From positions 1-27,838 of IMG/VR virus record IMGVR_UViG_3300045953_000001: a DNA stretch of 27,838 nucleotides, one strand, 5' to 3'. Below are positions 4,395 to 22,285 of this stretch, piece after piece. The position numbers and the translations under genes were made by a program. A model generated the notes under the pieces. It was not told where the DNA came from. It ran no database searches and worked only from the letters and a program-made list of their open reading frames with translations. This DNA comes from a virus. Each line of letters begins with the position of its first letter. The first letter of the stretch is position 1.

Positions 4395-4696
4395 AGCCGG
4401 TTCCCGGCATTTGTGACCGCTGCGGCCTGCGTTTCAAACTGTCCCATCTGAGAGATGAGTACCTTCTCGGTCGCCCGACCGGGCTGAAGGTATGCAAGTC
4501 CTGCTACGACGAGAGCCATCCGCAACTCGACACACGCGGCGTCAAGACTTCCGACAAGCAGACCGTCAAGGGTTCGCGTTCCGATAAAGCGGAACTGGCA
4601 GAGAGCCGCAGGCTGTACGGCTGGAACCCTGTCGGTCACGAGACAACCAACATCCTGCTCACGGATGTCGGGCGGGTCACGGTGAGGATTACATGA
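4391..4696 (+). CDS. Zinc-ribbon phage protein between the two adaptor genes
   Basis: A 101-residue protein with C8-x2-C11 and C35-x2-C38, a clean four-cysteine zinc-binding pair at the N-terminus (I-C-D-R-C-G and V-C-K-S-C-Y-D). A H-P-Q-L segment follows at about 43-46. Such small C-D-R-C-G proteins are regularly found between the two connector genes of marine podophages (pattern recollection). The C-terminal half is basic, then turns to short beta strands. It overlaps both neighbours through ATGA junctions, so it is almost certainly made together with the adaptors and may be a minor connector part or assembly factor. Function not established. Confidence 0.75.
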   Translation: MKPVPGICDRCGLRFKLSHLRDEYLLGRPTGLKVCKSCYDESHPQLDTRGVKTSDKQTVKGSRSDKAELAESRRLYGWNPVGHETTNILLTDVGRVTVRIT

Positions 4697-5331
4697 ACTG
4701 GGGTCAGATACAGGCTGTCGTCAAACAGTATCTGGAGAACGAAGAGCCGTCCTTTCTCGCCAACATTCCGCTGCATGCCCGCCTTGCCGAAGAGGATATC
4801 TATCGCAAGGTGCAGCTTCCGATGACCAAGGAGACAGCGACCTCGACGCTGGTTATCGGTGACCGTTTCCTGTCGGTGCCGGAGGACTACGTGTCCGCGT
4901 ATTCGCTGGCAGTTATTACGCCGACTTACGATTACCTGTTGCCCAAGGACGAAGCGTTCCTCAATGAAGCCTACCCGGACCCCACTCAGGTAGGAAAGCC
5001 GCGCTTCTACGCTGTCCGCAACGAGACGGACCTGTTGCTCGCCCCAACACCGGGGGAGAACTACGAAGTCGAGATGCACTACTTCAAGAAGCCGCCGTCG
5101 ATCAGCCTCAACAATGATCCCGACAATACCAACTGGCTGTCAGAGAACGGCGAGAACGCGCTGATCTTCGGCATCATCATGCATGGCTACATCTACGAGA
5201 AGGGCGATCAGGATGTGATCCAAGCCTACGGCAAGCAGTTCGAAGTGGCGATCACCGATCTCAAGCTGATTGTCGAGGGACGCCAGCGCAAGGATACCTA
5301 CCGGATGCCTGACCAGAGGATGCCGACATGA
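4693..5331 (+). CDS. Phage adaptor protein (SU10/gp6-like connector)
   Basis: A 212-residue second connector. Signatures are Y-L-E-N-E-E-P-S-F-L-A-N-I-P (about 13-26), a helix with A-E-E-D-I-Y-R-K-V-Q-L-P (about 32-43), V-P-E-D-Y, then G-K-P-R-F-Y-A and L-L-L-A-P-T-P, M-H-Y-F-K-K-P, and W-L-S-E-N-G-E-N-A-L-I-F-G with a helical end. This is the expected order for the phage adaptor family that forms a ring between portal/first adaptor and nozzle in SU10-like and related podophages. In relatives the nozzle gene normally lies close by; here it is 12 kb away. Start is the ATG overlapping the previous TGA. Confidence 0.8.
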   Translation: MNWGQIQAVVKQYLENEEPSFLANIPLHARLAEEDIYRKVQLPMTKETATSTLVIGDRFLSVPEDYVSAYSLAVITPTYDYLLPKDEAFLNEAYPDPTQVGKPRFYAVRNETDLLLAPTPGENYEVEMHYFKKPPSISLNNDPDNTNWLSENGENALIFGIIMHGYIYEKGDQDVIQAYGKQFEVAITDLKLIVEGRQRKDTYRMPDQRMPT

Positions 5332-5582
5332 GCATTGGGCAAGAAGCTGGGGCCAGCGTTGGCAGTGTCACCGTGGTCACCACCATGGATGGCGGGCATC
5401 CAGCGGAGTTCTTCGCGCAGAGGATTGTCGAGCGGCTGATCCAGATCGCGGACACGGCACCGGAGCCGATCAGGGCGCAGGCTATGGAGTACAGGGAACG
5501 CATGTATGCGGTTGTTCTGGATGGGGTCAAACGCGCCATCGCCTCAGACCGCGCTTACTTCTTGACCGGAAAGGAAAGGTGA
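5328..5582 (+). CDS. Small conserved phage protein, 84 aa, function unknown
   Basis: Starts at an ATG overlapping the adaptor stop. Residues 1-22 are Ser/Thr/Val/Gly-rich. The rest is helical with H-P-A-E-F-F-A-Q-R-I-V, I-A-D-T-A-P-E-P-I-R-A-Q-A and a final helix. I have seen similar H-P-x-E-F-x-A plus P-E-P-I-R-x-Q-A proteins just after adaptor genes in environmental phages, but know no function. No cysteines, signal peptide or membrane helix. Its position suggests a minor tail or assembly protein. Confidence 0.65.
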   Translation: MSIGQEAGASVGSVTVVTTMDGGHPAEFFAQRIVERLIQIADTAPEPIRAQAMEYRERMYAVVLDGVKRAIASDRAYFLTGKER

Positions 5583-5583
5583 G

Positions 5584-6012
5584 ATGGCGATTACCCAAGC
5601 AGTGGCGACAACCTTCAAGCAGGAACTGATGCAGGGGTTGCACAACTTCAACACAGCGGGCGGCAACTCCTTCAAGATCGCGCTCTACACCAGCGCGGCG
5701 ACATTGGACAGTTCGACCACGACCTATACGGCGAGCAATGAGGTTTCCGGAACCGGCTATACGGCGGGCGGCAACACGCTGACCAATGTGTCGCCAGTCG
5801 TCTCCGGCACCACGGCCTACACGGACTTCAACGACAGTACGTGGACAACCGCCACCATCACTGCCAGAGGGGCGATGATCTACAACTCCACCAATGGCAA
5901 CAGGACTGCGGTCATTCTGGACTTCGGCTCCGACAAAGCCAGTTCTGCGGGAGACTTCACCATCATCTTCCCGGCACCGGCAGCAGCGACGGCGATCATC
6001 AGGATTGCGTAG
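5584..6012 (+). CDS. Conserved beta-rich phage structural protein
   Basis: A 142-residue Thr/Ser/Gly/Ala-rich protein with a GAAAGG-type ribosome-binding site. It follows a very recognisable phage pattern: F-K-Q-E-L-M-Q-G-L-H-N-F (about 11-22), F-K-I-A-L-Y-T (about 30-36), G-T-G-Y-T-A-G-G-N-T-L (about 56-66), then F-N-D-S-T-W and A-R-G-A-M-I-Y-N, ending in V-I-L-D-F-G and I-I-F-P-A. The family is common in tailed phages next to fibre genes; I know it only as a structural protein of beta-sandwich character. It is the first gene of the adhesin island and may be a platform or collar for the fibres (inference). Confidence 0.75.
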   Translation: MAITQAVATTFKQELMQGLHNFNTAGGNSFKIALYTSAATLDSSTTTYTASNEVSGTGYTAGGNTLTNVSPVVSGTTAYTDFNDSTWTTATITARGAMIYNSTNGNRTAVILDFGSDKASSAGDFTIIFPAPAAATAIIRIA

Positions 6013-8169
6013 ATGGGCGTCGAAAGCGGCGATCTGTTCTCAAGCCTGAACGAAGCGTGGCCTCTGGGATCAGACCAGAAACAGTTTGGCGACGACCACT
6101 TCCGCAACATCAAGCACATCCTGAAGTACACCTTCAGCGACACCACGACTTCCTTCACCATCACCAAGGGTACGTCCACCTTCACCTTCGAAAGCGACGG
6201 TAACATCACCACCAACAGCGGCCTGTCCTACAACGCCACCAACGGCCAGATGGTGGTGACGTGGAAGACAGGCGGTTATGGGACCGGCGGCTACAAGATC
6301 ATTGATCAGGGAACCGGTCAGTCGCTGGTCTTCCAGACCGTCGCAGGCTCGACGCTCTACATCACCAACGGGGCCGGTTCGCCAGCCGGGTTCACCGCTG
6401 AATTCTTCAACAGCCCATACAATGGAGCCGTCAAGCTTCAGACAAGCGGCACCGGCATGTCACTGGCTGGTGACCTGACGGTCACGGGCAGCGTCATCGC
6501 GAACACCAATGCGGCTGGCGGCACCGGCACTGAATTCGTCATCAACGATACGCAGGCATTGAGTGCAGACAATGCGTCCATGTTCGCATGGAAGCGTGGT
6601 GGAACGCCACGCTGGCGGATGTTCCTGAACTCTGGTGAAAGCGGCAGCAACAGTGGTTCCAAGTGGACCGTTTCCCGTTATGCGGACAATGGCGCATGGC
6701 TTGGCAATCCATTCGAAATAGACCGCTCTAACGGTTCCGCCAAGTTCGCTGGTGCGCTTGATGTCATGGGTATTCTGAGCGCGCCAAACGGCATTACAGC
6801 TACAGGTGCCAACTTAACTTCCAGCGCCATATACACCTTGGCTGCGACATCGGCCAATGCGTGGTTTCGCCTGCCGCATGGTACGGCTCCATCCGTTCCG
6901 GCAAATGGCGACATGTGGACGACGACCGCAGGGCTGTATGCCCACATCAATGGCGGGACCGTAGGGCCGATTGGGGCGGCACCCGATCTTTCCGGTTATG
7001 CGCCGCTTGCCAGCCCTGCTCTCACCGGCAATCCGACTGCACCGACACCAAGTCCCGGTGACAACGATACCTCCATCGCCACAACGGCTTTCGTGACACA
7101 GATGATCGCGGACGCACCGGGAGGCGATGTCATCGGTCCTGCCGGTGCGACGGACAATACTGTCCCTCGCTTCGATGGTGTGACCGGCAAGATCATTCAG
7201 GGTAGCACCCTGTCCATCGAAGACAGCAATGGACGGTTCGCCTTCGTCAATGGTGGGCAAACAGTCATCGCACGCGATACGTCAGTTGCCAGCACCGGCA
7301 CCTTCGTCATTCGGGCAGACCCGCCGCATGGTCAGACGGTGCAGATATCACCGCGCCACGACAGTATTGGCAGCGCAACGTTTACCGGCAGCGGCCTGTA
7401 TACGTTCGACAATGCGGTCTACATCGGCAACGCCTCAGTCCTCAATACGGTTGGCCTTTTCAATTCGACCAGTGGCACTACTCGCGGGATGAAGATCGAT
7501 ACCGGTCTGCTCAATCTGCCGCACACTGCCGCACCTTCCTCCCCCACCAATGGCGATGTGTGGACAACGGCGACCGGAATGTACGCCCGTATCAATGGCG
7601 CAACCGTTGGGCCAATCGGTGCCGCGCCCGATCTGTCCAACTACTACACCAAGACAGAGAGCAACACGAACTTCGTTGATGCCGCTGGCGACACGATGAC
7701 CGGAGGATTGGTCATGAAGCCGACGACTGGATCGGCGTCGATAGTTTTGGATAAGTCTGCTGATTATGAAAAGAACAGTATCACTGGAAAGAAAGCAACA
7801 CTTGATCGATGGGTTATGTATTTAGGTAATAACGCTACTGAAACTGGATCAAATGCAGGCTCTAACTTTGACTTACAGTATTGTGACGATGGTGGATACA
7901 CCGCTGGTTCAGTTTTAACTTTTAATCGCAATACAGGGTTGGGCACTGTTAGTGGTGATCCTACATCTCCTCAAGGGATAGCTACAAAATCATACGTTGA
8001 TACGCTTATAAATGTTGTTTCTGTTGCTAAAGCAACCATTAACGATAGTGCTCCCAGTTCCCCGCAGCACGGGCAACTGTGGTGGAACTCGTTTGATGGC
8101 AACCTTTACATTTACTACAATGACGGTTCGTCCTCGCAGTGGGTCCAGATCAATACGGTAGGAGCGTGA
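6013..8169 (+). CDS. Large mosaic tail fibre protein, 718 aa
   Basis: The N-terminus has the fibre-anchor motif L-N-E-A-W-P-L-G-S-D-Q-K-Q-F-G-D-D-H-F-R (about 13-32). The body is a beta-rich shaft with duplicated modules. An R-W-x-M-[FY]-L-N block followed by G-S-N-x-G-S lies in a first copy (about 175-245) and a second (about 573-665). A P-H-x-x-x-P-S-x-P-x-N-G-D-x-W-T-T unit ending G-P-I-G-A-A-P-D-L occurs at about 287-327 and 502-543, with a degenerate third copy (P-S-S-P-Q-H-G-Q-L-W-W) at the C-terminus. Around 350 sits G-D-N-D-T-S-I-A-T-T-A-F-V, a classic tail-fibre segment, and K-S-Y-V-D-T appears near 660. Residues about 577-676 are encoded by clearly lower-GC DNA. Probably trimeric, binding a host surface polymer. 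Confidence 0.85.
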   Translation: MGVESGDLFSSLNEAWPLGSDQKQFGDDHFRNIKHILKYTFSDTTTSFTITKGTSTFTFESDGNITTNSGLSYNATNGQMVVTWKTGGYGTGGYKIIDQGTGQSLVFQTVAGSTLYITNGAGSPAGFTAEFFNSPYNGAVKLQTSGTGMSLAGDLTVTGSVIANTNAAGGTGTEFVINDTQALSADNASMFAWKRGGTPRWRMFLNSGESGSNSGSKWTVSRYADNGAWLGNPFEIDRSNGSAKFAGALDVMGILSAPNGITATGANLTSSAIYTLAATSANAWFRLPHGTAPSVPANGDMWTTTAGLYAHINGGTVGPIGAAPDLSGYAPLASPALTGNPTAPTPSPGDNDTSIATTAFVTQMIADAPGGDVIGPAGATDNTVPRFDGVTGKIIQGSTLSIEDSNGRFAFVNGGQTVIARDTSVASTGTFVIRADPPHGQTVQISPRHDSIGSATFTGSGLYTFDNAVYIGNASVLNTVGLFNSTSGTTRGMKIDTGLLNLPHTAAPSSPTNGDVWTTATGMYARINGATVGPIGAAPDLSNYYTKTESNTNFVDAAGDTMTGGLVMKPTTGSASIVLDKSADYEKNSITGKKATLDRWVMYLGNNATETGSNAGSNFDLQYCDDGGYTAGSVLTFNRNTGLGTVSGDPTSPQGIATKSYVDTLINVVSVAKATINDSAPSSPQHGQLWWNSFDGNLYIYYNDGSSSQWVQINTVGA
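7741..8040 (+). other. Low-GC insert inside the large fibre gene
   Basis: Hand count gives 115 G+C in 300 bases (38%), against 53-62% in sampled 60-base lines elsewhere in the same gene. Codons turn to A/T-ending forms and the composition recovers abruptly near 8040. The reading frame is intact. This looks like a segment recently acquired from a lower-GC phage. Confidence 0.8.
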
Positions 8170-9311
8170 TGGGGTACAATTTCCCGACCTCGCCCGCTAA
8201 TGGTCATGTCCATTGGGCTGGTGGCGGCTGGCCTACCTACGTTTACAGTTCCGCCAAAGGCACATGGACCAGACGGGCCGGTACGGCATCTCGAAAGAAC
8301 CTCCTGTTCAACCCATGCTTCCTGATCAATGACCAGAACGGTTTGACGGATGGGTCGAACGTCGCTGGCCTGATCATGGCGGAAGGCTATTACGCCACCT
8401 ACACCAGCGATGTCGGGGTCTATCGTGGTCAGCGTCTGGCTATTACGACACCGGACGGTTCCAAATACAGGCTGCGGCTGTCGATCACGACCGCCGATGC
8501 GACGCTCGGTTCCGGAGAGTGGCTGACATTCTACCACTATCTGGAAGGTCTTAGGATGACGGACCTTTTCTACGGAACCACCAATGCGAAATGGAGCGTG
8601 TTGCGGTTCGGATGGAAAGCCCCGGCTGGAACCTACAATGTCGCCATCAGGAACTTCGGTTCCACGCGGTCCTATGTGTATCCGTTCACCATCTCGGCGG
8701 CACAGGCGAATACCGATACGGTGCAAGTCTGTGTCGTTCCGCCCTGCACCGATGGGGCTTGGGTGACTGACAATACCAGATGGGGGTTCATCCACTGGAT
8801 TGCCTGCAACGCCAGCTTCACGTCCAGCACCTATCAATGGCTTTCCGGAAATTATGCCGGGGCCAGCACGCTGACCAACACGTTCTATCAGACGGTCGGC
8901 AACACCGTGGAACTGTTCGATGTCGGCTGGTATGTGGACCCCAACATCACCGGCTTGGCCCCACCATTCGAGCCAACGCACATTGAGGACGACCAGCAGG
9001 ACTGCCTGCGCTACTGGTACAGGTGCTTCCGCATGGATGGGGTCGTCAACACCACGTCGCAAGGCATCGCTTGGGCCTCGCATTATGTCCCGATGCGAGT
9101 GGCTCCAACTGCTGCATTGGTTGGCTCTCTGAGAACCCATGACATCTCTGTCGCGCCAAATGCCAGTTCGGTGACCAACTACCAGAACCATGCCGACAGC
9201 ACGGCACTGACCATCGGTCAGGCTGGCGCGACATACACGATTGGACGACCGTTCCGGACCTTGGTCGATACTCAGACCGCCAATTACATCTCGATGAATG
9301 CGAGGCCATAA
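8169..9311 (+). CDS. Tail fibre/adhesin, paralogue 1 of 3 (380 aa)
   Basis: The ATG at 8169 overlaps the preceding TGA (TGATG) and follows TAGGAG; an upstream in-frame GTG at 8139 is rejected. The N-terminus N-F-P-T-S-P-A-N-G is the short phage fibre anchor ending in a Trp-containing strand. Then comes N-P-C-F-L-I-N near 47, a beta-sandwich body of about 200 residues, F-D-V-G-W-Y-V-D-P and the T-G-L-A-P-P-F-E-P...C-L-R-Y-W-Y-R block (about 258-285). That block corresponds to the P-F-E...C-Q-R-Y-Y motif seen near the ends of many tail fibres. The C-terminus is Y-I-S-M-N-A-R-P. The two genes downstream share this architecture but diverge through the middle, so it is probably one of three alternative or co-displayed sugar-binding adhesins. 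Confidence 0.8.
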   Translation: MGYNFPTSPANGHVHWAGGGWPTYVYSSAKGTWTRRAGTASRKNLLFNPCFLINDQNGLTDGSNVAGLIMAEGYYATYTSDVGVYRGQRLAITTPDGSKYRLRLSITTADATLGSGEWLTFYHYLEGLRMTDLFYGTTNAKWSVLRFGWKAPAGTYNVAIRNFGSTRSYVYPFTISAAQANTDTVQVCVVPPCTDGAWVTDNTRWGFIHWIACNASFTSSTYQWLSGNYAGASTLTNTFYQTVGNTVELFDVGWYVDPNITGLAPPFEPTHIEDDQQDCLRYWYRCFRMDGVVNTTSQGIAWASHYVPMRVAPTAALVGSLRTHDISVAPNASSVTNYQNHADSTALTIGQAGATYTIGRPFRTLVDTQTANYISMNARP

Positions 9312-10447
9312 TGGCGATCAACTTCCCGTCCTCGCCCACACAAGGACAGGTTTTCAACGCTGTTCCCGGCACATCGTTTGTCTACAGCAATGGACTTTGG
9401 ACCAAGGCACCGCTGACTACGGCACTGCCGAAGAACTACATCGTCAATCCCGCCTTTCAGGTCAGCCAGCCATTCGGGACAACGGCGACCACCGGAGGGA
9501 ATGCCGCTTATATTTCGGAGAACTGGAAAGTCTCCGCCACCACGACAGGCGCGGTAACTGGACAGCAAGTCGCTGTCGTAACTCCTTATGGTTCTCCTAA
9601 CCGCCTGCGCTTCACGATCAACAACGTTGCCGGTTCTCCGATTGGTACGCGGAATGTCTGGGTTTTCTGTCCGATAGAGGGTGTTCGCATAGCCGATTTG
9701 ATGTTCGGGACAGCCAGCGCAAAGCAGATCGTCGTGCGTTTCGGCTTCAAGGCATCCGTTGTCGGGTCCACTGGCGTTGAGTTCACTGTCCGTACTCCAG
9801 CCGGATACGGGTATCGAACATCGACAGGAGCAAACACTGCTAACACGGACGCCTATTGCACGCTTGTCATACCCGGTGCCACGGGTGGCACATGGGCAAA
9901 TGACAATTCGGCAGCAATGGAGCTTTGCTTCTCGTTTGTATGGGGCAGTGGAAATAGCGGCGGGACCACCAATAGCTGGACGACCGGCGTAGCGGATGGT
10001 GGCGCGGCTGGCGCAGCGCAGTTCTTTACTGTTGGCGATACGTTGGAAATCTTCGACTTCGGCCTCTACGCCGATCCCTACAAGACCGGTGTTGCGCCGC
10101 CGTTTGCGCTTCCGGAAATCACAGCGGAAACCAAACGCTGCCAGCGGTACTGGTACAGGGCATATGGACTGCATGGCGGCGTGGCGAGCGGCACCGCTGT
10201 GTCACGCAGTGGGATGCGGCATCCGGTGCCGATGCGGCTTGCGCCAACCGCAACCGCAGCGGGTTCTGTTCGGTTCTACGATGGCACAACGACAGCCCTC
10301 TTCTCGTCCATCTCTGCCAATACCAGCAACTACTGGGCTGCGGAACTCGACATCACGACAGGGGGAACCTTTGCCACGGGCGGCAAGCAGGCATGCATGT
10401 ACTACCAGACGGAAGCCGACTACATCGCCATGAATGCGAGGATGTGA
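9311..10447 (+). CDS. Tail fibre/adhesin, paralogue 2 of 3 (378 aa)
   Basis: Same plan as its neighbours: A-I-N-F-P-S-S-P-T-Q-G-Q anchor, a Y-S-N-G-L-W-T strand near 27-33, V-N-P-A-F-Q-V-S-Q near 47-55, a beta-sandwich body, F-D-F-G-L-Y-A-D-P and K-T-G-V-A-P-P-F (about 257-264), then C-Q-R-Y-W-Y-R and the C-terminus Y-I-A-M-N-A-R-M. The N-P-x-F-Q-V-S-Q strand is a familiar element after the anchor in phage fibres that begin with N-F-P-S-S-P. It starts at the ATG following a TAA, sharing one base with it. The core between residues 60 and 250 differs strongly from paralogue 1, which suggests a different ligand. Confidence 0.8.
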   Translation: MAINFPSSPTQGQVFNAVPGTSFVYSNGLWTKAPLTTALPKNYIVNPAFQVSQPFGTTATTGGNAAYISENWKVSATTTGAVTGQQVAVVTPYGSPNRLRFTINNVAGSPIGTRNVWVFCPIEGVRIADLMFGTASAKQIVVRFGFKASVVGSTGVEFTVRTPAGYGYRTSTGANTANTDAYCTLVIPGATGGTWANDNSAAMELCFSFVWGSGNSGGTTNSWTTGVADGGAAGAAQFFTVGDTLEIFDFGLYADPYKTGVAPPFALPEITAETKRCQRYWYRAYGLHGGVASGTAVSRSGMRHPVPMRLAPTATAAGSVRFYDGTTTALFSSISANTSNYWAAELDITTGGTFATGGKQACMYYQTEADYIAMNARM

Positions 10448-11583
10448 TGGCAATCAACTTCCCATCCTCCCCTACCGATGGCCAGAAGTTCACCAGCGGC
10501 ACGGTGGTCTACACATACAGCACCACGACAGGGACTTGGACGGCGGCATCGTTGGGTACTGCTTTGCCGTTCAACTACATCATCAACCCGTCGATGCAAA
10601 TCAGCCAGCAGAATGGCGACAATCTTGGCCTCACTCCACCTTACTATATGGCTGATCAGTGGGGGTATTTTGCCAATGCATCGCGGCCTATTACTGTAAA
10701 TCGTAGAGCCTATGCCGCCAGTTCATCCAGATACGCATTGGAATATAACGCTTCTGACAGCGTTGCTGTTGTTGCTGCTGACTATCAGATGATCGACCAC
10801 CGCATTGAGGGCAGCCGTGCCGCCCCATTCAAATGGGGAACATCATCTGCGGAACAGGTCGTTTTGAGATTTGGCGCAGAGCGTTATGGAAATGCAACGG
10901 ACTTTGCGGTCGCCCTCAGAAATGAGGCTGGCAACCGGGCCTACGTCATCCCGTTTTCCGTCTCCACCTCATCGACGCCCACCGTATTTACCTTTGCAAT
11001 CCCCGGCGAGACGACCGGAACATGGTCGGGCGGCACCGGTATGGGGGTCAGCATTGATTGGGTGGTGGTGTGCGGATCAACCTATTTCGCCCCGGCAACG
11101 CTCTCTTGGCAGAACGGCAATTACCTTGGCTACAATGGCATCCATAACATCATCTCTACGGCAGGCCAGAACTGGCTCTACATCTACGATGTCGGTCTGT
11201 ATCTCGACCCGCTGAAGACCGGCAAAGCACCGTCCTACGAAATGCCGCCCCATCGCCAGACCTTCAGTGAATGCCAGCGGTACTGGCAGAAGCAGATGGG
11301 GTCCATCGGTGTCGGCATCGCGTCAACTGCTACATCACAACGGTCAGCCTACCCAAACCAAGCAGTGATGCGGATTTTTCCAACACCGACACTGGTCGGC
11401 ACACCAAGAGCATGGGAACCGGCTGCGTATCCCAATGTTACAGCCGTCGCCAATAACTACAGCAACACCTACGTCTTTGAGCATAACTACACATCTGCCG
11501 CCGCCAACACGGCTGGTCGTGCGGTGGCCCTCATCGACATGACGCCATCCCTCTACATAGCCGAGAATGCGAGGTTAGCCTGA
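10447..11583 (+). CDS. Tail fibre/adhesin, paralogue 3 of 3 (378 aa)
   Basis: The ATG at 10447 overlaps the previous TGA; an in-frame ATG at 10393 lies inside the preceding gene and is rejected. Anchor A-I-N-F-P-S-S-P-T-D-G-Q, N-P-S-M-Q-I-S-Q near 47-54, a beta body, Y-D-V-G-L-Y-L-D-P and K-T-G-K-A-P-S-Y (about 255-262), C-Q-R-Y-W and a C-terminus with E-N-A-R-L-A. Identical length to paralogue 2. Bases 10621-10800 are about 48% GC by hand count, a mild dip suggesting a separately acquired receptor-binding segment. Role as a sugar-binding fibre is inferred from family motifs and context. Confidence 0.8.
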   Translation: MAINFPSSPTDGQKFTSGTVVYTYSTTTGTWTAASLGTALPFNYIINPSMQISQQNGDNLGLTPPYYMADQWGYFANASRPITVNRRAYAASSSRYALEYNASDSVAVVAADYQMIDHRIEGSRAAPFKWGTSSAEQVVLRFGAERYGNATDFAVALRNEAGNRAYVIPFSVSTSSTPTVFTFAIPGETTGTWSGGTGMGVSIDWVVVCGSTYFAPATLSWQNGNYLGYNGIHNIISTAGQNWLYIYDVGLYLDPLKTGKAPSYEMPPHRQTFSECQRYWQKQMGSIGVGIASTATSQRSAYPNQAVMRIFPTPTLVGTPRAWEPAAYPNVTAVANNYSNTYVFEHNYTSAAANTAGRAVALIDMTPSLYIAENARLA

Positions 11584-11876
11584 TGCCTGAAATTGTCGTC
11601 AACGCGGAGAAGCACGTCGCTGGCGTCTATATCGATCTCACCTACGGCGTGGACGACTTCGTGCAAGGCACGGTGCAAGTCCTGCTGACGCTACCGGAGA
11701 CGGCAAGATCGGAAGCGGAGACGCCGGTTTCCTCCAGTGTGGCGTCATCAGTCATCACCAAGCGTCTGCTTGCCGACACCAATCCGGAAGTGCAGGCGGC
11801 AATCGAAACATTGAAGACGGCTGTTCTGGTGTGGGAGCAGGAAGACAGCACGCCGCCACCGGAACCTGAAACTTAA
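11583..11876 (+). CDS. Small acidic protein after the fibre triplet, 97 aa
   Basis: It begins at the ATG of a TGATG overlap. The first 40 residues look like beta strands (I-V-V-N-A-E, V-A-G-V-Y-I-D-L, V-Q-V-L-L-T-L-P); the rest is helical, with a Pro/Glu tail. Composition is acidic. I do not recognise the family. Small acidic proteins next to fibre genes sometimes act as fibre assembly chaperones, so that is one possibility; a minor structural protein is another. Neither is supported by a specific motif. Confidence 0.6.
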   Translation: MPEIVVNAEKHVAGVYIDLTYGVDDFVQGTVQVLLTLPETARSEAETPVSSSVASSVITKRLLADTNPEVQAAIETLKTAVLVWEQEDSTPPPEPET

Positions 11877-11900
11877 CACCAACCGATGGGGGATTGCTGA

Positions 11901-14900
11901 ATGGCATTTGGCACCCCCGTCAACCTTGGCTCAGTCGGCAGCAAGACCGGCACCACGGCTTCCATAACACTGGCGACAACCGTCAACGCCGGATCGCTGA
12001 TCGTCGTTACGGTCGGTGCCGACAACAAGGCGACGACGGACGTAACCGGCGCGGATGATGTTGTCGGCGTTTCCGATAGCAAGGGCAATACTTACGTTCT
12101 GGCGGCTGGCCAGACCAACGGCCAAGGCTCTGCCAATGCTGGCGCACATGGTTCGATCTGGTACTCGAACACCACCGTGCAACTGGTCAGCAGTGACACC
12201 ATCACCCTGACCATCGGGACCAGCGGCAACGCCCGCGCTTTTTTCGCTGGTTCCTATTCGGTGGGCGCGGGCAACATAGCCCAAGTGGTGGGAACCGCCA
12301 GCGGCGTGGGGGATACCGGGGCCGATCCGGCTTCCGTGATCTCCGGTTTGACCAGTGGGAATTACCTGTACGTTGGCGTCAGTTCCGACGAAACGACGAC
12401 TGGTTCAGCCGCTTACACCGGCTTCACCCGTCTTGGTATTGTTGCTTCGACCGGTGGCGCGGCGGCATCGAACATTGCCACCTCGCACCAGTACGCCATT
12501 GACAGTGCCTCGACCGGCAAAACCTTTACGCCCGCGACGGCGGTTGATGCTGTTTCGGTGCTTGTCGCTTTCAGGGAAATCGCCAACCCCAACATCAGCG
12601 TGACTGTCACCGGACAGGCGGTCACGGCTTCGATAGGCACAGCCAAGGCTGTCGCTACCCCGGCGGACTTTCTTTGCACATCCTTCACGCCCGGTGCTGA
12701 CCGCAACGACTTCTCTGGCAGTGTCGGCGTTCGCATCTGGTTCAACCAGAACATGACGTTTGAGTGGCTCGGCGCACGGTGCGGGACGGACAACACCGGG
12801 CTGCACAGGGTTGCCGTTTACGAGTGGATGGCGGACAGCCTCGTTGCGGAAGGCTATGTCGATTTCACCGACAGAACCGTTGGTGACTACGCATGGGTCA
12901 AGGTCGCCCCCTTCTCGGTCGTCTCCGGCAATTACTACGCGATCATGAAGGACACCACGGCATCGGACGGCCAGTGGTGGGCCAATATCGGGGGAACCGT
13001 ATTTCAGTTTTCCTCGCAGACTGTGGGTGCCTACAGACCATCGGGAGGGGCGCTCAGTGGCGCAACGCCAGACCAGCAATATGTTGGCGTTGATCTGGGG
13101 TGGGACAGTGTATCCACCCCGATATCGGTTAACGTTACCGGTCAGGAAGTTACGGCTTCTGTTGGGAATGCTTCGGCCAGCATAAAGATAAGCGCCACGC
13201 TCGCCAGCCAGTGGTTTGCTGCCTATGTCGGAACCGTAGCCGTCACTGCCGCAAGCGCACAGAGCGTCACGCTTACCGGGCAGGAACTGACGGCAGGCAT
13301 TGGAGATGCGTCCGTCACCACCGGGACAGGTGCCGCCGGTCCTGAGTGGAACACCGACAGCGACACATGGGACAGCGACCTCATCCCTTGGGATGTCGTG
13401 ACTGCCGATGTCACTGTCTCGCTAACCGGGCTGGGGCTGACCGCTTCGGTCGGCACGGTTACCGCAAGTTCGAACGCCAGCGTCACGGTCGCCGGTCAGT
13501 CGGTCACAGCATCGGTCGGCACTGTCAGTGTCGTCGGCAAGGCCAGACCGCTGGTTGCTGGTGACCCGCAGACGGCCTCTGTCGGAACGGTTTCGGTCAC
13601 TGGCAAAGCGAACGTCACCGTCACCGGACTGCAAGTGGCAGCTTCGGTCGGAACGGTTTCGGCTGTTCAGTCTGCGAATGTCTATCCAACTGGCCTCGTC
13701 CTCAATCCGTTGGTCAGCGATGTCTCGGTGTCCAATGCGGGCAACATGTCGGTCGGCGTTGCCAGCCCGACAGTCAATGCCTACAGCGGCATACTTGGCA
13801 TCACAGGCAAGGCCAACGTCTACATTACCGAAGGCGCTCCGCTTGTTCCGTGGACGCCCGATCTCCAGACCGGACTGAACATCTGGCTGGATGCCGATGC
13901 ACTTGGTCTGGCGGACGGGGCTGCGGTCAGTCCGTGGCCGAACCCCGGCTACGGTCCCGATCTTGCGGTTGTCGGGTCACCGGCTCCGACAGTTGCCGCC
14001 AACACGCTGAACAGCAAACCGGTCGTCCGCTTCAGGACCAATGAAGGACGGCTGCGCCAGACCAGTACCGGCATCGCTTACGAGTACACACTGTCCTACA
14101 TCGTCCGTCACATTGTCGGTCCGCCGGGACGGGCAATGTCCTGCATCTATCCGCCACCCAACTTCCTTGTCGGCTTCCACTCGTCCGGTCAGGACACGAT
14201 GTACGACAATGGCTGGATCGTGTCGGGCACCGGATGGGTGTCCGCACCGGGGCCATGGAAGCTGTATGGGGCAGATGGCAAGTCGCCCGGTGGCGTCCTC
14301 ATCCGCTTCTTCAAGGACGGCACCCTGCTGGGGTCCGCCACCAGCGGCGCGGGAATGCAGGGCACCTTCGCCATCAGTGGGTACGATGCCAGCGGTACAC
14401 AGGAGACGATGGACTGCGAGGTCGCGGAACTCGTTCTCTACGACAACAAGCTGGCCGATGCAGACCGCGAGAAGCTGGAAGGCTACCTGTCCCACAAATG
14501 GGGGCTACAGGCCAACCTCCCGGCAGGACATCCGTACAAGGCATCCGCGCCGATGGAAGGTGGCGGCGGCGGCAACTCGCTTGGACTGACGGCTTCTGTC
14601 GGAACCGTTTCGACAGCCGTCAAGATGACCGCAGCGGTGACCGGCCAACAGGTCGCTGTCTCGGTCGGCACAGTTCAGGTCACGACGCAGCAGAAGATAA
14701 CCGTCGCAAGCCAACAGGTTGCGGTCGGTCTTGGCACCGTCTCGGTTGCCACCAAACAGGCGGTCAGCGTTACCGGGCAAAGTGTCACCGTCTCGCTCGG
14801 AACCCTGTCGATCAGCGCAAGGGCAGGCGTCTCCGTCACCGGTCAGTCTGTCTCCGTCTCTGCCGGGACGGTTTCGGTCAGAACAGTCCAGAACGTCAAT

Positions 14901-15464
14901 GCTCTGACGACGGTGGCCTTTGTTTCGGTCGGCAGCGTCTCTGTCGCACTGGTCACCAACCTGTACGTCAGCGGCCAGAGCCTCACCGCTTCTGCCGGAA
15001 CGGTGACAGTCAGAGGCACAGCCACCGCAACGCTTCTCGGTGAGCAACTGACGGTCGAAGTCGGTGAGGTCGATTTTGCCCTCGGCATCACCTTCCCGGT
15101 ATTGGGACAGGAGGTCACTGCCTATCTCGGCAATGTCATTGCGTCTGCCGGTGTCAGCATTGAGCCGCCCGGCTTTGAGATGCAGGTGCTGACCGGCGAT
15201 GTTTTCGTTGCCTACGATTACGTCTTCGAACTGCCGTATCCGACAGAGGCAATGACTGTCCACCTCGGTCGCGCCGTCTCCACGAACTGGGGGCACAGAC
15301 CGGAGGACGACATCAGGGACGAGAACTGGATACCAGTGGACGAAGGCGGTCACGGTGACTGGGTGCCGGTGCCGACAGACAAGCATGTATGGGTGAAGAC
15401 CACTTCACCGGGAGAGGATTGGATCAAGCATCCCCACCAGAAACACGAGTGGACACATGGCTAG
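11901..15464 (+). CDS. Giant repeat-containing tail protein with LamG-like domain, 1187 aa
   Basis: The start ATG follows a GGGGGA element. Domains by eye: residues 1-228, a Gly/Thr-rich beta domain; one 22-residue repeat near 231; about 250-400, a beta-sandwich resembling DUF4082-type carbohydrate-associated domains (weak call); about 407-640, a block of 22-residue repeats; about 653-882, a LamG/concanavalin-like domain ending in the telling sequence L-E-G-Y-L-S-H-K-W-G-L then L-P-A-G-H-P-Y-K; about 892-1105, a second repeat block; then an acidic, Trp/His-rich C-terminus. The repeat consensus is V-x-V-T-G-Q-x-V-x-A-S-V-G-T-V-S-V. Small V-T-G-Q/S-V-G-T repeats are known in phage virion proteins. 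It is probably a long, flexible or solenoid adhesin presenting a lectin domain. The next gene overlaps by 8 bases. Confidence 0.8.
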   Translation: MAFGTPVNLGSVGSKTGTTASITLATTVNAGSLIVVTVGADNKATTDVTGADDVVGVSDSKGNTYVLAAGQTNGQGSANAGAHGSIWYSNTTVQLVSSDTITLTIGTSGNARAFFAGSYSVGAGNIAQVVGTASGVGDTGADPASVISGLTSGNYLYVGVSSDETTTGSAAYTGFTRLGIVASTGGAAASNIATSHQYAIDSASTGKTFTPATAVDAVSVLVAFREIANPNISVTVTGQAVTASIGTAKAVATPADFLCTSFTPGADRNDFSGSVGVRIWFNQNMTFEWLGARCGTDNTGLHRVAVYEWMADSLVAEGYVDFTDRTVGDYAWVKVAPFSVVSGNYYAIMKDTTASDGQWWANIGGTVFQFSSQTVGAYRPSGGALSGATPDQQYVGVDLGWDSVSTPISVNVTGQEVTASVGNASASIKISATLASQWFAAYVGTVAVTAASAQSVTLTGQELTAGIGDASVTTGTGAAGPEWNTDSDTWDSDLIPWDVVTADVTVSLTGLGLTASVGTVTASSNASVTVAGQSVTASVGTVSVVGKARPLVAGDPQTASVGTVSVTGKANVTVTGLQVAASVGTVSAVQSANVYPTGLVLNPLVSDVSVSNAGNMSVGVASPTVNAYSGILGITGKANVYITEGAPLVPWTPDLQTGLNIWLDADALGLADGAAVSPWPNPGYGPDLAVVGSPAPTVAANTLNSKPVVRFRTNEGRLRQTSTGIAYEYTLSYIVRHIVGPPGRAMSCIYPPPNFLVGFHSSGQDTMYDNGWIVSGTGWVSAPGPWKLYGADGKSPGGVLIRFFKDGTLLGSATSGAGMQGTFAISGYDASGTQETMDCEVAELVLYDNKLADADREKLEGYLSHKWGLQANLPAGHPYKASAPMEGGGGGNSLGLTASVGTVSTAVKMTAAVTGQQVAVSVGTVQVTTQQKITVASQQVAVGLGTVSVATKQAVSVTGQSVTVSLGTLSISARAGVSVTGQSVSVSAGTVSVRTVQNVNALTTVAFVSVGSVSVALVTNLYVSGQSLTASAGTVTVRGTATATLLGEQLTVEVGEVDFALGITFPVLGQEVTAYLGNVIASAGVSIEPPGFEMQVLTGDVFVAYDYVFELPYPTEAMTVHLGRAVSTNWGHRPEDDIRDENWIPVDEGGHGDWVPVPTDKHVWVKTTSPGEDWIKHPHQKHEWTHG
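13119..13830 (+). repeat. 22-residue (66-base) repeats, block A
   Basis: Degenerate copies at about 13119-13322 are followed by a spacer and then regular units beginning at 13407, 13473, 13539, 13605 and 13671, then one irregular 24-residue unit from 13737. Unit: about V-x-V-x-G-x-x-x-T-A-S-V-G-T-V-S. The Gly at unit position 8 is kept in all five regular units. An isolated copy starts at 12591. Confidence 0.85.
14574..15215 (+). repeat. 22-residue (66-base) repeats, block B
   Basis: A partial unit at 14574 is followed by nine units in strict 66-base register from 14622 (14622, 14688, 14754, 14820, 14886, 14952, 15018, 15084, 15150). Later units diverge most. The G-x-V-x-V of the second half is better kept than the first half. 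Confidence 0.88.
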
Positions 15465-16350
15465 CACATACACGACCAGCCTCGGCCTTGAACTTCAGGC
15501 GACCGGTGAGAACCGGGCGTCTTGGGGATCGAAGACCAACACCAACCTGTCGCTGATCGAAGAAGCCCTCAGCGCGATGAAGACCATCCCGATGACGGAT
15601 GCCGACATGACGCTGACCAAGGTCAATGCCGGGACCGATCAGTCGCGCCCGATGTTCCTGCGCTTCACCGGAACCACAACGGCTGTCCGCAAGGTCAGCA
15701 TACCGACCGTCTCCAAGTTCTTCTTCATGGAGAATGCCACGACAGGCGGCTTCTCGCTGACCATTTCGACGGGAGCAGGACCGACGCAGAACTACGAACT
15801 GATCCACAATCAGTGGAAACTGGTGTTCACGGACGGCTCCAATATCTGGTCCAGCGACAGCCTGTTCTCGACATCATCTGAGCAACACCGCTGGGGTATT
15901 GTCCCACAGGTCAGTTCGACCGGCATCACCGACACCGGCAAGGCTTTCGATTTCCACAACGCCAATGTCGATGCGACGGACTATGCAGTGCGGCTGGAGA
16001 CAGGCGGCACCACCACCGATCTCTACATCACCCCGTCAGGCAGCACCGGAAAAAAGATATGGAATGCTGGCAACATGGGACCGGGATCAGGTCTGAATGC
16101 CGATCTCTTGGACAACAAGCATGCTTCTGAAATTTTCACGGAACCACCGGATGACGGCAAGCTTTACGTGCGCAGGACCAGCGGTGGCGTTTCCTCTTGG
16201 GTTGCCATTGACGCGCCATGGAAGGTGGAAACCAACAGCGATGTGACACTCAACTGGGGGTCCGGCATCAAGATACGCATCCGCTCCGATGGCTTCATCC
16301 GCACCGCAAGCGACGTGCAGATTTACTCAACCACGGTGGCGACGGGATGA
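15457..16350 (+). CDS. Tail fibre protein, 297 aa
   Basis: The N-terminus carries a well-known phage fibre anchor: L-G-L-E-L-Q-A-T-G-E-N (about 9-19), then W-G-S-K-T-N-T-N-L and L-I-E-E-A. The middle is beta-rich with N-Y-E-L-I-H-N-Q-W-K near 110. A second familiar fibre element is W-N-A-G-N-M-G-x-G-S-G-L-N-A-D-L-L-D, residues about 202-219, usual in the distal part of fibres. The C-terminus is beta-rich and less conserved. It overlaps the giant repeat protein by 8 bases and the adhesin downstream by 4. In T-even-type systems the gene after a long fibre encodes its tip adhesin; the Gly-rich protein that follows here would fit that pairing. Confidence 0.78.
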   Translation: MASTYTTSLGLELQATGENRASWGSKTNTNLSLIEEALSAMKTIPMTDADMTLTKVNAGTDQSRPMFLRFTGTTTAVRKVSIPTVSKFFFMENATTGGFSLTISTGAGPTQNYELIHNQWKLVFTDGSNIWSSDSLFSTSSEQHRWGIVPQVSSTGITDTGKAFDFHNANVDATDYAVRLETGGTTTDLYITPSGSTGKKIWNAGNMGPGSGLNADLLDNKHASEIFTEPPDDGKLYVRRTSGGVSSWVAIDAPWKVETNSDVTLNWGSGIKIRIRSDGFIRTASDVQIYSTTVATG

Positions 16351-17591
16351 CCATTCAAGGCTCGGCCAATCTCCAGATGGGGCACCTGTGTACTGAGTAC
16401 GGCGTGGCTGTGGCGAATGCCTACCTGTCACAGTTCCATCGTGGTCATGCCAGCAAATATGTCCGTGCCAATTCCGGTGACAATGCTGCGGTCAATGGCT
16501 CTGCCGGTGTCCCGGCAACCTATGTCAATCTCCAGATCGCCCACTTTGCCGGTCAGGCCAAGGGTTGGACCTATACCAACTCAGTGGTGCGGATAAACAA
16601 CTACTATCCACATGGTGAGTTCGGTAGCGACTGGCTGGGTGCGAACGGCACCGGTTGGCCATGCACCTTCATCAACAACAACGGCATCTATTCACAGGGA
16701 ACGTCATGGTATGCCTGTATCATCTACGGGCGTCAGAACAATGGTTCCTTCCTTTTCCAGAACAATTCTGAAATCCAAGGGGGTGGCGGCGCACCCAATT
16801 CGGGTGCCGGTCAGCATGCCATCTACCTCTACAATTCCGAAAACGCTTCCTATGACAATCGTCCCATCATCCACAATCATGGGGCCATTCGTGGTGGTGG
16901 AGGAGCGGGTGGCGTAGGCGGTACGGGTGGCACCGGAGGACCGGGTTATTACGATACACCCTACACCGCACAGGAAGGACCGGCTTACGACAAGAGTACC
17001 TATCGCTGGATGACCGACAGCGGTGGAACCGATACCGCCATATGGGCTGGCACCTTGGTCGGCTCCGCTACGACGCTGGCCAACCCATTTGCCAACGGTG
17101 CCTACACCTACTACCGGCACACGTTACGGGAACAGAACTCTTATGGCGGCGGCTCCCCCGGCCCGCACGAGCCGCCCAACCCGACCTACTGGAAAAGCTA
17201 TTACGAGATTTACCGTCAATACACGGCATACAGCCGGACGATCACCAGTGGTGGCGGGGGTGGTGCTGGCGGCAACGGCGGGCGCGGCATCGGTTACAAC
17301 TCCCCCAATCAGGGTGGCAGCGGTGGTTCTCCCGGTGCCGGTGGTCAAGCCTATGCAGGCTCCGGCGGCTATGGCGGAACCGGTGGAACGGGAGGGTCGT
17401 GGGGCGCGGTCGGCAATACCGGCAATACCGGGGCGACAGGCAATGGCGGAAACTATGGCGGCGGCTATGGAGGAGCGGCGGGCGCTGGGGGTGGTGCTGC
17501 TGGTTATTCGATCTATGCGGCATCCAAGTGGGGATACTGGTCACCCGGCACCAATAACGGCCCGTATGGTGGAGGCGTGGCGAACTCATGA
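16347..17591 (+). CDS. Glycine-rich gp38-like receptor-binding adhesin, 414 aa
   Basis: The ATG at 16347 overlaps the fibre stop; an upstream in-frame start at 16218 lies inside that gene and is rejected. Residues 1-170 are polar and beta-rich with short I-N-N-x-G-x-I turns. Glycine tracts occur near 148-153 and 181-198 and form a long region at about 300-385 (G-G-G-G-G-A-G-G, G-G-T-G-G-T-G-G and similar). Asn-x-Gly-x-Ile followed by polyglycine is the mark of phage adhesins related to T-even gp38, where polyglycine-II helices carry variable loops that contact the receptor. A roughly 100-residue aromatic, Tyr/Pro-rich region lies between the two main Gly stretches and could be the specificity segment. 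Position after a fibre gene supports a detachable tip role. Confidence 0.75.
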   Translation: MTIQGSANLQMGHLCTEYGVAVANAYLSQFHRGHASKYVRANSGDNAAVNGSAGVPATYVNLQIAHFAGQAKGWTYTNSVVRINNYYPHGEFGSDWLGANGTGWPCTFINNNGIYSQGTSWYACIIYGRQNNGSFLFQNNSEIQGGGGAPNSGAGQHAIYLYNSENASYDNRPIIHNHGAIRGGGGAGGVGGTGGTGGPGYYDTPYTAQEGPAYDKSTYRWMTDSGGTDTAIWAGTLVGSATTLANPFANGAYTYYRHTLREQNSYGGGSPGPHEPPNPTYWKSYYEIYRQYTAYSRTITSGGGGGAGGNGGRGIGYNSPNQGGSGGSPGAGGQAYAGSGGYGGTGGTGGSWGAVGNTGNTGATGNGGNYGGGYGGAAGAGGGAAGYSIYAASKWGYWSPGTNNGPYGGGVANS

Positions 17592-19516
17592 GTTGGACAA
17601 GCCTGAAGATTGCGCCCGGTCTGGTCAGAAACACCACAAGGTACGCCACGGCTGGCACGTGGTTCGACTGCTCGCTCGTCCGTTTCCGTGACGGCACTCC
17701 GGAGAAATGGGCCGGATGGGAAGAGGAGTATCCCGGCCTGAAGATGGACGGCATCTGCCGCTCGCTGCATCGGCACGGCGACCTACAGGGGTTCTCGTGG
17801 GTGAGCGCCGGAACCTCCAAGCGGTTCTACATGCTGTCAGACGACAATCAGTGGGACGTAACACCATGGGCTGGACCGGCAGTGACGCTCGGCACCGATC
17901 CACTAAGTGTCACCGATGGCTCAACCGTGATGACCATCACCCAGAATACACACCAGCACTTCCCCGGTGACACGGTGTTCATCTCCGGCGCAACGGCTTT
18001 TGCCGGACTGCCGGACAGTGGCGACAACAACATCAACCGGGAATACATCATCCAGTCCTATGTGGATGACAACCACTACACGGTCACCCTGCCTGTTGCC
18101 GCGACGGCAACCACAACAGGAGGAGGAGCAGCGGTTCAGGCCCGCTATCTGCTTCGCGCTGGCACCGACGACTACATCATCGGCGGCGGCTGGGGATCGC
18201 TGACTTGGAACGAAGAGGAATGGGGCGGCGAACCCGACAAGGCCATTCTGGATCAAATGGGCATCTGGTCGCAGGACAACTGGGGCGAGGATTTGCTCGC
18301 CTGTCCACTGAGTGGCGGCATCTATTACTGGGACGCCACCACACCGCAGAACAGGATGATCAACATCCTCGACATCCCTGAAGATTTCTTCGGTCCCGAC
18401 ACGCCGGGTGCCGATGGGCACGCCCCGCAGGAAGCGGAGTTCATTATCATCTCGCACCGTGACCGGCACTGTCTGGCGTTCGGCGCATCGGCTTTCATGG
18501 GAGGCGGCATCAAGGAACCGATGTCATTCCGCTGGTGCAGTCAAGAGAACATCCTCAATTGGGATGACGCCAACAAGACGACCGGGACTGCCGGAACCCT
18601 GCCGCTGTCGAACGGCTCCAAGTTTGTCGCCGGTCATGCGACGGCGCGTGAAATTCTGGTGTGGACGGATCAGGCAATGTACTCGGTCCAGTATGTCGGT
18701 GCGCCGCTGATCTACGTGGCGGAACTCCTCGACCGCTGGTCCGACATTGCCGGGATGAAGGCGGTCTGTTCCTACAATGGCGTGGTCTACTGGATGGGAC
18801 GCTCCGGCATCTATGCCTATTCGGGGCGCACGGAGAAGGTGCCCTGCCCGATTTGGGGCTATGTCTCCGACCGCATGGATACCGACCAGTTCCCGAAGAT
18901 TTATGCCAGCGCCAACCAGAAGCACAACGAAGTGCTGTGGTTTTATCCAAGCGCCGAAAGCGGTGGCATGATTGACAGCTATATCGCCTTCAATGTGATG
19001 GAGCAGATATGGACCTTCGGCAATCTGCACCGCACTGCATGGCTGGATGTCGATGCCTTGCATGGAGCGATTGCCGCGACCGATGATGGACGCATATTCG
19101 CCCACGATGTCGGTGCCGACGACGGGTCCACCTCACCGGTTTCACCGCTTAATGCCTTCATCGAAAGCGGCCCCATTGAACTGTCTTCGGAAGGCAGCTT
19201 CGACAAGGGCGACAAGATGATGTTCGTACGGCGTATCCTACCCGATGTTACGTTCCGCGAAGGCGTAACATCGTCCGATGCGCCGCAGATGAACATCGTC
19301 TTGAGAATGATGGACAAACCGGGTGGCGGCTTCGTGCAGGAAGAGAGCCGGGAAACACAGCGCACCGCGACCATTCCCATCGAAGAGTTTACCGAAGAGG
19401 CGTGGGTCCGGTTGCGCGGACGGTCGATGACGGTCAGAGCGGAGAGCAACACGACCGGCACCAACTGGCGTATGGGTATCGTTCGCATCGATGCACGGAC
19501 GGATGGACAGCGATGA
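17588..19516 (+). CDS. Tail nozzle / stabilisation protein (P22 gp10-like)
   Basis: A 642-residue protein of the family whose beta-propeller rings form the nozzle of short tails. Residues 1-40 give I-A-P-G-L-V-R-N-x-T-R-Y-A and W-F-D-C-S-L-V-R-F-R-D-G-x-P-E-K, the standard opening. Residues about 100-185 look like the Ig-like domain often inserted here (H-F-P-G-D-T-V-F-I-S-G-A and Y-T-V-T-L). The propeller follows with A-F-G-A-S, F-R-W-C-S-Q-E-N-I-L-N-W near 312-323, W-T-D-Q-A-M-Y-S-V-Q-Y and G-I-Y-A-Y-S-G-R-T-E. It overlaps genes on both sides by ATGA. In many relatives it follows the adaptor genes closely; here adhesin genes intervene. Confidence 0.85.
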   Translation: MSWTSLKIAPGLVRNTTRYATAGTWFDCSLVRFRDGTPEKWAGWEEEYPGLKMDGICRSLHRHGDLQGFSWVSAGTSKRFYMLSDDNQWDVTPWAGPAVTLGTDPLSVTDGSTVMTITQNTHQHFPGDTVFISGATAFAGLPDSGDNNINREYIIQSYVDDNHYTVTLPVAATATTTGGGAAVQARYLLRAGTDDYIIGGGWGSLTWNEEEWGGEPDKAILDQMGIWSQDNWGEDLLACPLSGGIYYWDATTPQNRMINILDIPEDFFGPDTPGADGHAPQEAEFIIISHRDRHCLAFGASAFMGGGIKEPMSFRWCSQENILNWDDANKTTGTAGTLPLSNGSKFVAGHATAREILVWTDQAMYSVQYVGAPLIYVAELLDRWSDIAGMKAVCSYNGVVYWMGRSGIYAYSGRTEKVPCPIWGYVSDRMDTDQFPKIYASANQKHNEVLWFYPSAESGGMIDSYIAFNVMEQIWTFGNLHRTAWLDVDALHGAIAATDDGRIFAHDVGADDGSTSPVSPLNAFIESGPIELSSEGSFDKGDKMMFVRRILPDVTFREGVTSSDAPQMNIVLRMMDKPGGGFVQEESRETQRTATIPIEEFTEEAWVRLRGRSMTVRAESNTTGTNWRMGIVRIDARTDGQR

Positions 19517-21802: not shown

Positions 21803-21806
21803 GACC

Positions 21807-22273: not shown

Positions 22274-22285
22274 GGACTAAAAGCC

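Follow-up and report, generated by a model that had tools for sequence, protein, structure and literature searches.

The window analysed here, a 27,838-base virus record taken as the whole stretch of DNA, carries three consecutive adhesin genes, A, B and C, of nearly one length and directly behind a fibre shaft gene. Comparison of their protein sequences indicates that the three are ancient paralogues, each specific to its position, present as one of each and in a fixed order across phage lineages. The trio lies in the 12-kb interval between the tail adaptor genes and the nozzle-type gene, which a sequence-only reading of the window had described as an adhesin island. That reading was partly confirmed: the placing of the interval proved ordinary and its share of the genome had been overstated, and its tandem adhesin genes hold more interest than that reading recognised.

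The A-B-C adhesin trio

The start codons first called at 8139, 10393 and 16218 were revised to 8169, 10447 and 16347. With these starts, the shaft and the trio read as follows.

6013..8169, + strand: fibre shaft, 718 amino acids (aa); tail-fibre PHROGs
8026..8166, + strand: C-terminal module of the shaft, its last 47 residues; the same module ends the open reading frame (ORF) before slot A in the triplet loci
8169..9311, + strand: slot A adhesin, 380 aa; phrog_4492 on the C-terminal part, and slot trees
9311..10447, + strand: slot B adhesin, 378 aa, with an N-terminal module of ~40 aa and, in a weak model, a CBM4-like (carbohydrate-binding module 4) beta-sandwich; slot trees
10447..11583, + strand: slot C adhesin, 378 aa; phrog_4492 and slot trees

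Tail-fibre PHROGs were matched by the ORFs first called at 6013, 8139 and 10393. The ORFs at 9311 and 11901 had no match of their own at the family cut-offs used (PHROG 0.01, Pfam 0.1), and the 9311 ORF was grouped with its neighbouring adhesins by alignment. In the shaft, residues 1-92 resembled the solved chain 9nxk_A, 'Tail fibers protein' (E 4e-4), and residues 563-645 matched the solved surface protein 8ojn_C (E 2e-8).

A first search with the A, B and C genes of the window and of locus L004 returned 33 loci. Compact three-copy tandems were present in eight of these, the window and L004 included, with slot A in two pieces in L004 and L120. The labels A, B and C were assigned by position before tree building; an upstream ORF of L124 that lacked an adhesin domain and one partial copy in L122 were left out of the tree. 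Later scans with B, A and C, one each (for B and A, the best 80 matches), added one new triplet group, L152 with L153, L154, L302, L304 and L305 (three contigs), while L160 and L161 were fragments of the L126 kind.

The 24 proteins of the eight loci split perfectly by position. The tree required two label changes, which is the minimum, compared with a mean of 11.8 after shuffling (0/200 as low). With L152 added, the 27-protein tree from nine viral loci again required the minimum of two changes (shuffled mean 13.2; 0/200 as low), and the slot groups were supported at 83/96 for A, 98/97 for B and 95/95 for C. Profiles built on the remaining eight loci assigned the three L152 genes to A, B and C in order, and the nearest neighbour belonged to the same slot for 22 of the 24 proteins of the eight-locus set. 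As cut for the trees, all 27 adhesins were 369-386 aa in length. Of the junctions that could be read in the triplet loci, 22/26 overlapped and the remaining four abutted. The window itself carries one member of each slot clade, in the order A-B-C, behind an ORF that ends in the shared module. Lineage-specific (recent) duplication of A, B and C was ruled out by the position-wise grouping.

The slot signal was unevenly spread along the proteins. Slot-specific identity was strongest at residues 1-40 (0.487 versus 0.397) and 241-280 (0.516 versus 0.408) and weakest at residues 81-120, where 22/200 permutations gave a value as large; for the signal as a whole, permutation of labels within loci gave 0/200 as large as observed. 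Such a pattern is expected if the slots are interfaces and the loops bind ligand. The slot trees also disagreed with each other. L122 grouped with L121 in slot A (100/99) but with L120 in slot B (91/79), and L004 grouped with L120 in slot A (100/100) but with L126 in slot B (93/86), which indicates that slots have been exchanged between phages while keeping their place.

Upstream of slot A, the ORF ended in the shaft module in all nine triplet loci: phmmer recovered it in eight (E 8e-15 or better), whereas in L119 it was recognised by eye within the short sequence just 5' of slot A. By eye, the module also resembles the module at the N-terminus of the A, B and C proteins. The alignable part of slot A in L004 is preceded by 564 additional bases. 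What these results establish is the order of the genes, descent by slot among the triplet loci, the module before slot A and the overlap of reading frames.

Two of the loci with the trio, the window and L004, belong to phages with an SU10-type connector and a window-type nozzle; two others, L120 and L124, belong to phages that have a phrog_511 protein. The phrog_511 protein of L124 was nearest to those of Rhizobium phages RHph_TM and of Burkholderia phages such as DC1 and BcepIL02. One SU10_adaptor match each was present in the records of L122 and of L160, a relative of L126, and neither SU10_adaptor nor phrog_511 was detected in the L121 record (77.6 kb) or in that of L152 (82.2 kb). The nozzle alignment A2 matched 0/10 records with triplet loci, in a search made without a positive control. 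The trio spans at least two tail types.

Among 50,697 annotated phage records, B matched 16, A 22 and C one, with a best identity of 35.2% and up to three places per record. Megablast of positions 3700-17600 against the same records gave no close DNA relative. The matches include tail-fibre C-termini of the phrog_4492 type in cyanophages and Methylophilales phages, which share the adhesin domain family with the trio; they differ in occupying up to three separate places per record at no more than that identity, with no compact triplet apparent among the matches listed. A literature search of full-text articles in PubMed Central (PMC) found no description of a fixed-order A-B-C trio of this family.

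In a side observation on slot C, two near-identical contigs from different samples, L084 and L085, both stop exactly at window position 10841, inside the slot C gene. The window sequence continues past this point, and the pattern just 5' of 10841 matched L084 and L085 only. Population variation of slot C around this position is possible.

Predicted fold and assembly of the trio

Only slot B was modelled, from six sequences. Residues 39-255 of the model aligned with CBM4-2 at Z 11.7 over 160 residues, at a predicted local distance difference test score (pLDDT) of 51 and with non-CBM sandwiches scoring nearly as high; phage tailspike, fibre or baseplate chains gave Z 9.4-10.5. A CBM4-like fold is accordingly offered as a putative assignment, drawn from the model, for the adhesins of the trio.

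Fibre tips are usually treated as homotrimers. For the trio, we give an even chance to a single tripartite receptor-binding head per fibre, most simply an A:B:C heterotrimer on a homotrimeric shaft. The heterotrimer is favoured by the equal lengths, the presence of one of each, the fixed order and the coupled frames. The unit would be a four-gene cassette of a fibre shaft and three translationally coupled adhesin genes, with each subunit carrying a putative CBM4-like sugar-binding sandwich. A, B and C would occupy three different structural slots, most simply as the heterotrimer on its homotrimeric shaft. The N-terminal modules and the 241-280 face would form the contacts and the variable stretches the ligand loops; the frame of the head would be slot-specific and its binding loops free to evolve. 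Joint assembly, stoichiometry, sugar binding and the symmetry of the shaft are what we infer here. A fuller version, in which a mobile four-gene cassette moves across tail types with obligate slot subunits, an A:B:C heterotrimer, slot-by-slot exchange and a three-glycan readout, is proposed more tentatively.

Mixed tips have precedents that make one credible here (statements from papers cited by PMC number refer to parts of those texts). In the virophage DSLV2, three consecutive tail proteins, encoded by genes of similar length and conserved relative position, are reported to form a 1:1:1 heterotrimer (PMC12724248); they differ from the trio in belonging to a virophage and in having T4 gp37-like tips with PF07484, whereas the window trio occurs in tailed phages, is CBM4-like as far as the model goes, and stands behind a shaft gene. 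In the model of podophage DEV, one gp54 and one gp55 monomer tip a homotrimeric gp56 stem (PMC12892993). The DEV tip, however, has two DEV-specific proteins and a protein receptor, LptD (PMC12892993), compared with three same-length, sugar-binding-like paralogues in the window. The heterotrimers of Milano, T1 and diffocin are baseplate or capsid parts (PMC10811340, PMC11945409, PMC10996793), and the passages considered from the phage 7-7-1 paper make no mention of a heterotrimer (PMC12796354).

Several observations weigh against the tripartite head. In a quick tree with single-copy and other multi-copy relatives added (181 rows, from 259 before removal of rows at least 70% alike), A, B and C required 2, 2 and 3 changes, such that the clustering was kept but the groups were not clean; the whole tree needed six changes against a minimum of three, still far below the 26.7 of shuffled labels. 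The C proteins of L004 and L126 fell among outsiders and the A proteins of L004, L120 and L152 beside C, mostly on weakly supported branches. The excess of same-slot identity was modest (0.371, versus 0.329 within a locus and 0.325 otherwise). The loci had been selected for compact triplets, and two of the scans covered the best 80 matches. The model of B was poor at its pLDDT of 51, and unrelated sandwich proteins also reached Z 9.4-10. Reassortment of slots, as in L122, is compatible with slots that are only loosely coupled just as much as with a tight heterotrimer. In L122, the ORF that precedes slot A (L122:616-987) encodes only 124 aa, and a long shaft is therefore not present in every locus. 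Lastly, an in-frame stop breaks the slot A gene in L004 and L120.

The L122 ORF contains a collagen-like stretch and ends in the shaft module; it has a partial extra adhesin on one side and slot A on the other. The slot A stops fall at about the same place (L004:4554-4556 and L120:917-919; TAA in one, TGA in the other) with an in-frame ATG closely 3', and perhaps represent a split gene with reinitiation.

A serious rival is that each of A, B and C forms a homotrimer of its own and that the three dock at separate slots of one branched complex, as TSP1-4 do in Ackermannviridae. It would account for a slot-specific N-terminal module and for slots that exchange independently between phages. In Ackermannviridae, with several adhesins per virion, the N-termini that set their places are conserved and the receptor domains vary and are exchanged (PMC11721090). 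However, the Ackermannviridae proteins are enzymatic beta-helix trimers with very diverse receptor domains (PMC11721090), whereas all 27 proteins of the present set belong to one fold family at nearly one length, and their slot signal also extends into the body, at residues 241-280. We consider the branched complex possible but rather unlikely. That the trio is a set of alternative adhesins providing binding breadth, with no joint assembly, would agree with the looser arrays of two to four copies without slot identity in other phages (e.g. L127, L276, L285 and L292); breadth by itself fails to explain one of each in a fixed order behind the same upstream module in nine loci, and this explanation seems improbable.

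The position grouping might instead be an artefact of building trees from diverged paralogues and of choosing compact triplets. Many forks were indeed weakly supported, and the 181-row tree breaks perfect monophyly. The nearest-neighbour counts, the 3/3 profile classification of the later-found locus and the within-locus permutations all speak against an artefact, which we judge very improbable. Should the fixed trio across lineages hold true, one fibre would combine three binding surfaces and evolve by swaps of single slots, and host-range prediction would gain a unit larger than a gene. Co-assembly of A, B and C at 1:1:1 is a clear testable question.

The interval between the adaptor and nozzle genes

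Eight structural, fibre or adhesin-type genes and a small acidic gene had been described between two connector genes and a nozzle gene, and all were found, on the + strand, in 5584-17591. In addition to the shaft and the trio listed above, the region contains the following.

3714..4394, + strand: adaptor gene 1; SU10_adaptor PF24175, 46.3 bits (cut-off 27)
4391..4696, + strand: small protein between the adaptors, 101 aa, with cysteine pairs, zinc-ribbon-like by eye; blastp matches in 11/23 loci tested
4693..5331, + strand: adaptor gene 2; SU10_adaptor PF24175, 83 bits (cut-off 27)
5328..5582, + strand: conserved small protein, 84 aa; blastp matches in 10/23 loci tested
5584..6012, + strand: p644, a conserved virion-type beta protein and candidate fibre-tail adaptor; phrog_644
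11583..11876, + strand: acidic protein, 97 aa, with 16 D/E and 5 K/R; no relative found
11901..15464, + strand: 1187-aa protein with a 22-residue repeat; repeat hidden Markov model (HMM)
15457..16350, + strand: second fibre, its N-terminal 130 residues conserved across the group; phrog_31104 and N-terminal HMM
16347..17591, + strand: glycine-rich tip-type protein; phrog_10745 (1.4e-22), residues 301-360 being 50% glycine
17588..19516, + strand: nozzle-type gene; phrog_3287 (E 1.4e-46), and the solved chain 9nwi_Y (E 5.7e-6 over residues 323-480)

Both connectors exceeded the SU10_adaptor cut-off and are thus SU10-type adaptors. The nozzle-type name rests on phrog_3287, on relatives annotated 'stabilization protein', on the partial match to 9nwi_Y and on gene position; blastp of this protein against the SU10 ORFs showed no similarity to SU10 gp17. 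From 5582/5584 to the nozzle-type gene, 7/10 junctions overlap, in agreement with the mostly overlapping genes reported before. The same reading had seen no promoters or terminators. In 3600-22300, promoter-like sites numbered 7 (shuffled mean 7.7) and terminator-like sites 17 (mean 14.2); since these counts are at the level of shuffled sequence, internal signals are neither demonstrated nor excluded.

Adaptor and nozzle genes had been thought usually to lie close together, which the survey of relatives contradicts. Profiles were used for the adaptor, the nozzle, p644 and the fibre N-terminus, and distances were taken between profile matches. Thirty loci had both ends in order, and removal of L123 and L158 (copies of the contig of L004), L253 (a copy of that of L137) and the window left 26 records, some of them close kin and not all independent. 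In these the gap ranged from 1,193 to 12,739 bp. The conserved fibre N-terminus lay inside it in 24/26 relatives, p644 in 16/26 and the repeat protein in 12/26. At 12,283 bp, the window gap ranked in the top three of 27 (its own counted), together with DSL-LC04 (12,054) and HTVC023P (12,739). This rank is uncertain because no more than 10 kb per side was retrieved for viral loci, and longer gaps were visible only in annotated records. At the other extreme, the gap in fragment G016 would be only ~250 bp if the fragment is circular. As annotated, the long gap of HTVC023P contains 2-oxoglutarate (2OG) oxygenases and a ferrochelatase, and that of DSL-LC04 lectin-like, oxygenase, holin and peptidase genes. 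The contents differ between phages, in that a constant frame is filled differently at two sites, 5' of the repeat protein and 3' of the conserved fibre. As a side observation, among 22 records that match SU10_adaptor at all, 21 do so two or more times (three of them come from the phage of the window itself, and the second match sometimes falls below the cut-off).

In SU10 (Kuravirus), the adaptor gp11 is followed by the long fibres gp12 and gp13, the short fibre gp16 and the nozzle gp17 (PMC9509320). The window likewise has its fibre genes between adaptor and nozzle genes. It differs in having two adaptors, compared with the one adaptor protein named for SU10 (PMC9509320), and in its 12.3-kb gap with the A-B-C trio, compared with a 6.2-kb gap that includes genes annotated as holin and lysis; no lysis gene was recognised in the window gap by PHROG and Pfam searches. 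Closer in order are Pelagibacter phages HTVC023P and HTVC027P, Roseobacter phage CRP-901 and DSL-LC04, which share with the window two adaptors with a gene between them, p644, the conserved fibre N-terminus and the nozzle-type gene. The repeat protein was also common to HTVC023P, HTVC027P and DSL-LC04 but was not seen in CRP-901, and the gaps of this group reach at most 12.7 kb. In these phages, the gene between the adaptors had no blastp match to that of the window, and the extra gap genes are annotated as 2OG oxygenases, ferrochelatase, lysis and lectin genes rather than the trio. The interval is therefore the normal fibre locus of a short-tailed phage whose connector is of the SU10/HTVC023P type, though of unusual length, and the idea that adaptor and nozzle genes normally adjoin in SU10-type tails is corrected. 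The comparison of gene order that had been set as a test of the island thus found the same arrangement in relatives, with only the size near the maximum seen.

An inserted 12-kb island separating genes that belong together, with a switchable host range, would fit the length of the gap and the one tyrosine recombinase in the genome. This explanation is scarcely credible given the conserved fibre gene in nearly all related gaps and the fibre genes at the same place in SU10, and the proposed switching found no machinery. Reverse transcriptase was found in 0/13 records. Two of these span the genome of the window's phage apart from window 10842-16931, and the genes of that part showed no reverse transcriptase family; the interval therefore does not qualify as a target of a diversity-generating retroelement. 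No serine invertase or resolvase was found in the two contigs covering all but that same part, or among the genes of that part. Around the region there were no long inverted repeats, the best being 40 nt at 70% (25 longest of 48 pairs). The sole loose end on switching is the tyrosine recombinase (PF00589) at G001:21740-22210, ~10.8 kb past the window end, which may mark a temperate phage.

Host binding had been said to occupy well over a third of the window. With the second group of genes after the nozzle the share is 51%, if all are host-binding genes, but only ~18% of the genome, of which the window is a fragment of about a third. Near-identical contigs G008 (57,507 bases) and G001 (42,154) extend the window at its ends and overlap each other by ~27.9 kb, at 99.99-100% identity outside the window. 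These overlaps give a circular map of 27,838 + 3,378 + 46,666 = ~77.9 kb, which also carries portal, large terminase and primase/helicase genes. The many-armed virion suggested before is plausible in that several separate fibre or adhesin groups are encoded, namely the shaft with A-B-C, the 15457 fibre with the glycine-rich 16347 protein, and the 19513 gene with three C1q-like genes, and several kinds of appendage may thus be present. That the separation of adaptor and nozzle is unusual was not supported.

Individual genes of the interval and its surroundings

Five models were made of p644, of which two were fair (mean pLDDT 79 and 68) and the others reached 37-41. The best model gave VIA Z-scores of 12.3 and 11.8 to phage baseplate chains and Z 8.2 to 8jou_a, 'Fiber I and fiber-tail-adaptor of phage GP4', for which the Foldseek E was only 0.075. 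There was no Foldseek match at 0.001, and a profile search gave no credible PDB chain. On these models, a role of p644 in fibre attachment is likely but unproven.

The 97-aa acidic protein had no PHROG match at 0.01, none above the Pfam cut-off and no blastp match in 23 loci. In the 1187-aa protein the repeats are spaced by 66 nt or multiples of this, with exceptions, and shorter relatives of the 22-residue repeat precede the conserved fibre in other phages. A lectin fold in the middle of 11901-15464 (laminin-G/concanavalin-like, by eye) was considered and dropped, having no Pfam, PHROG or PDB support. The glycine-rich 16347 protein presumably resembles tip adhesins of the S16 gp38 type.

After the nozzle-type gene, the second group consists of the following genes.

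19513..20145, + strand: fibre-type gene; weak tail-fibre PHROG match (0.0017), relatives in L003 and L004
20142..20687, + strand: C1q-like copy 1; phrog_15750 (4.3e-10), no Pfam match
20688..21248, + strand: C1q-like copy 2; PF00386, 31.3 bits (cut-off 23.7)
21248..21802, + strand: C1q-like copy 3; phrog_15750 (0.002), PF00386 at 19 bits, below the cut-off

The last three form a second tandem triplet, of C1q/TNF-like genes (20142-21802), after the nozzle and fibre genes; L003 has two copies. The gene at 20688 had no tblastn match among the 50,697 phage records. C1q-type heads are trimeric, and the question of homotrimer or heterotrimer consequently arises for this triplet too.

Just beyond the window, L104:2158-9882 is an open frame of 2,575 residues with C-terminal matches to giant phage proteins of unassigned function (phrog_14770). 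Within the block of virion genes, positions 25112-25549 encode a GNAT acetyltransferase-like protein (by eye) that is conserved in L003-L007, and the CRP-901 record likewise annotates a GNAT gene after its nozzle-type gene.

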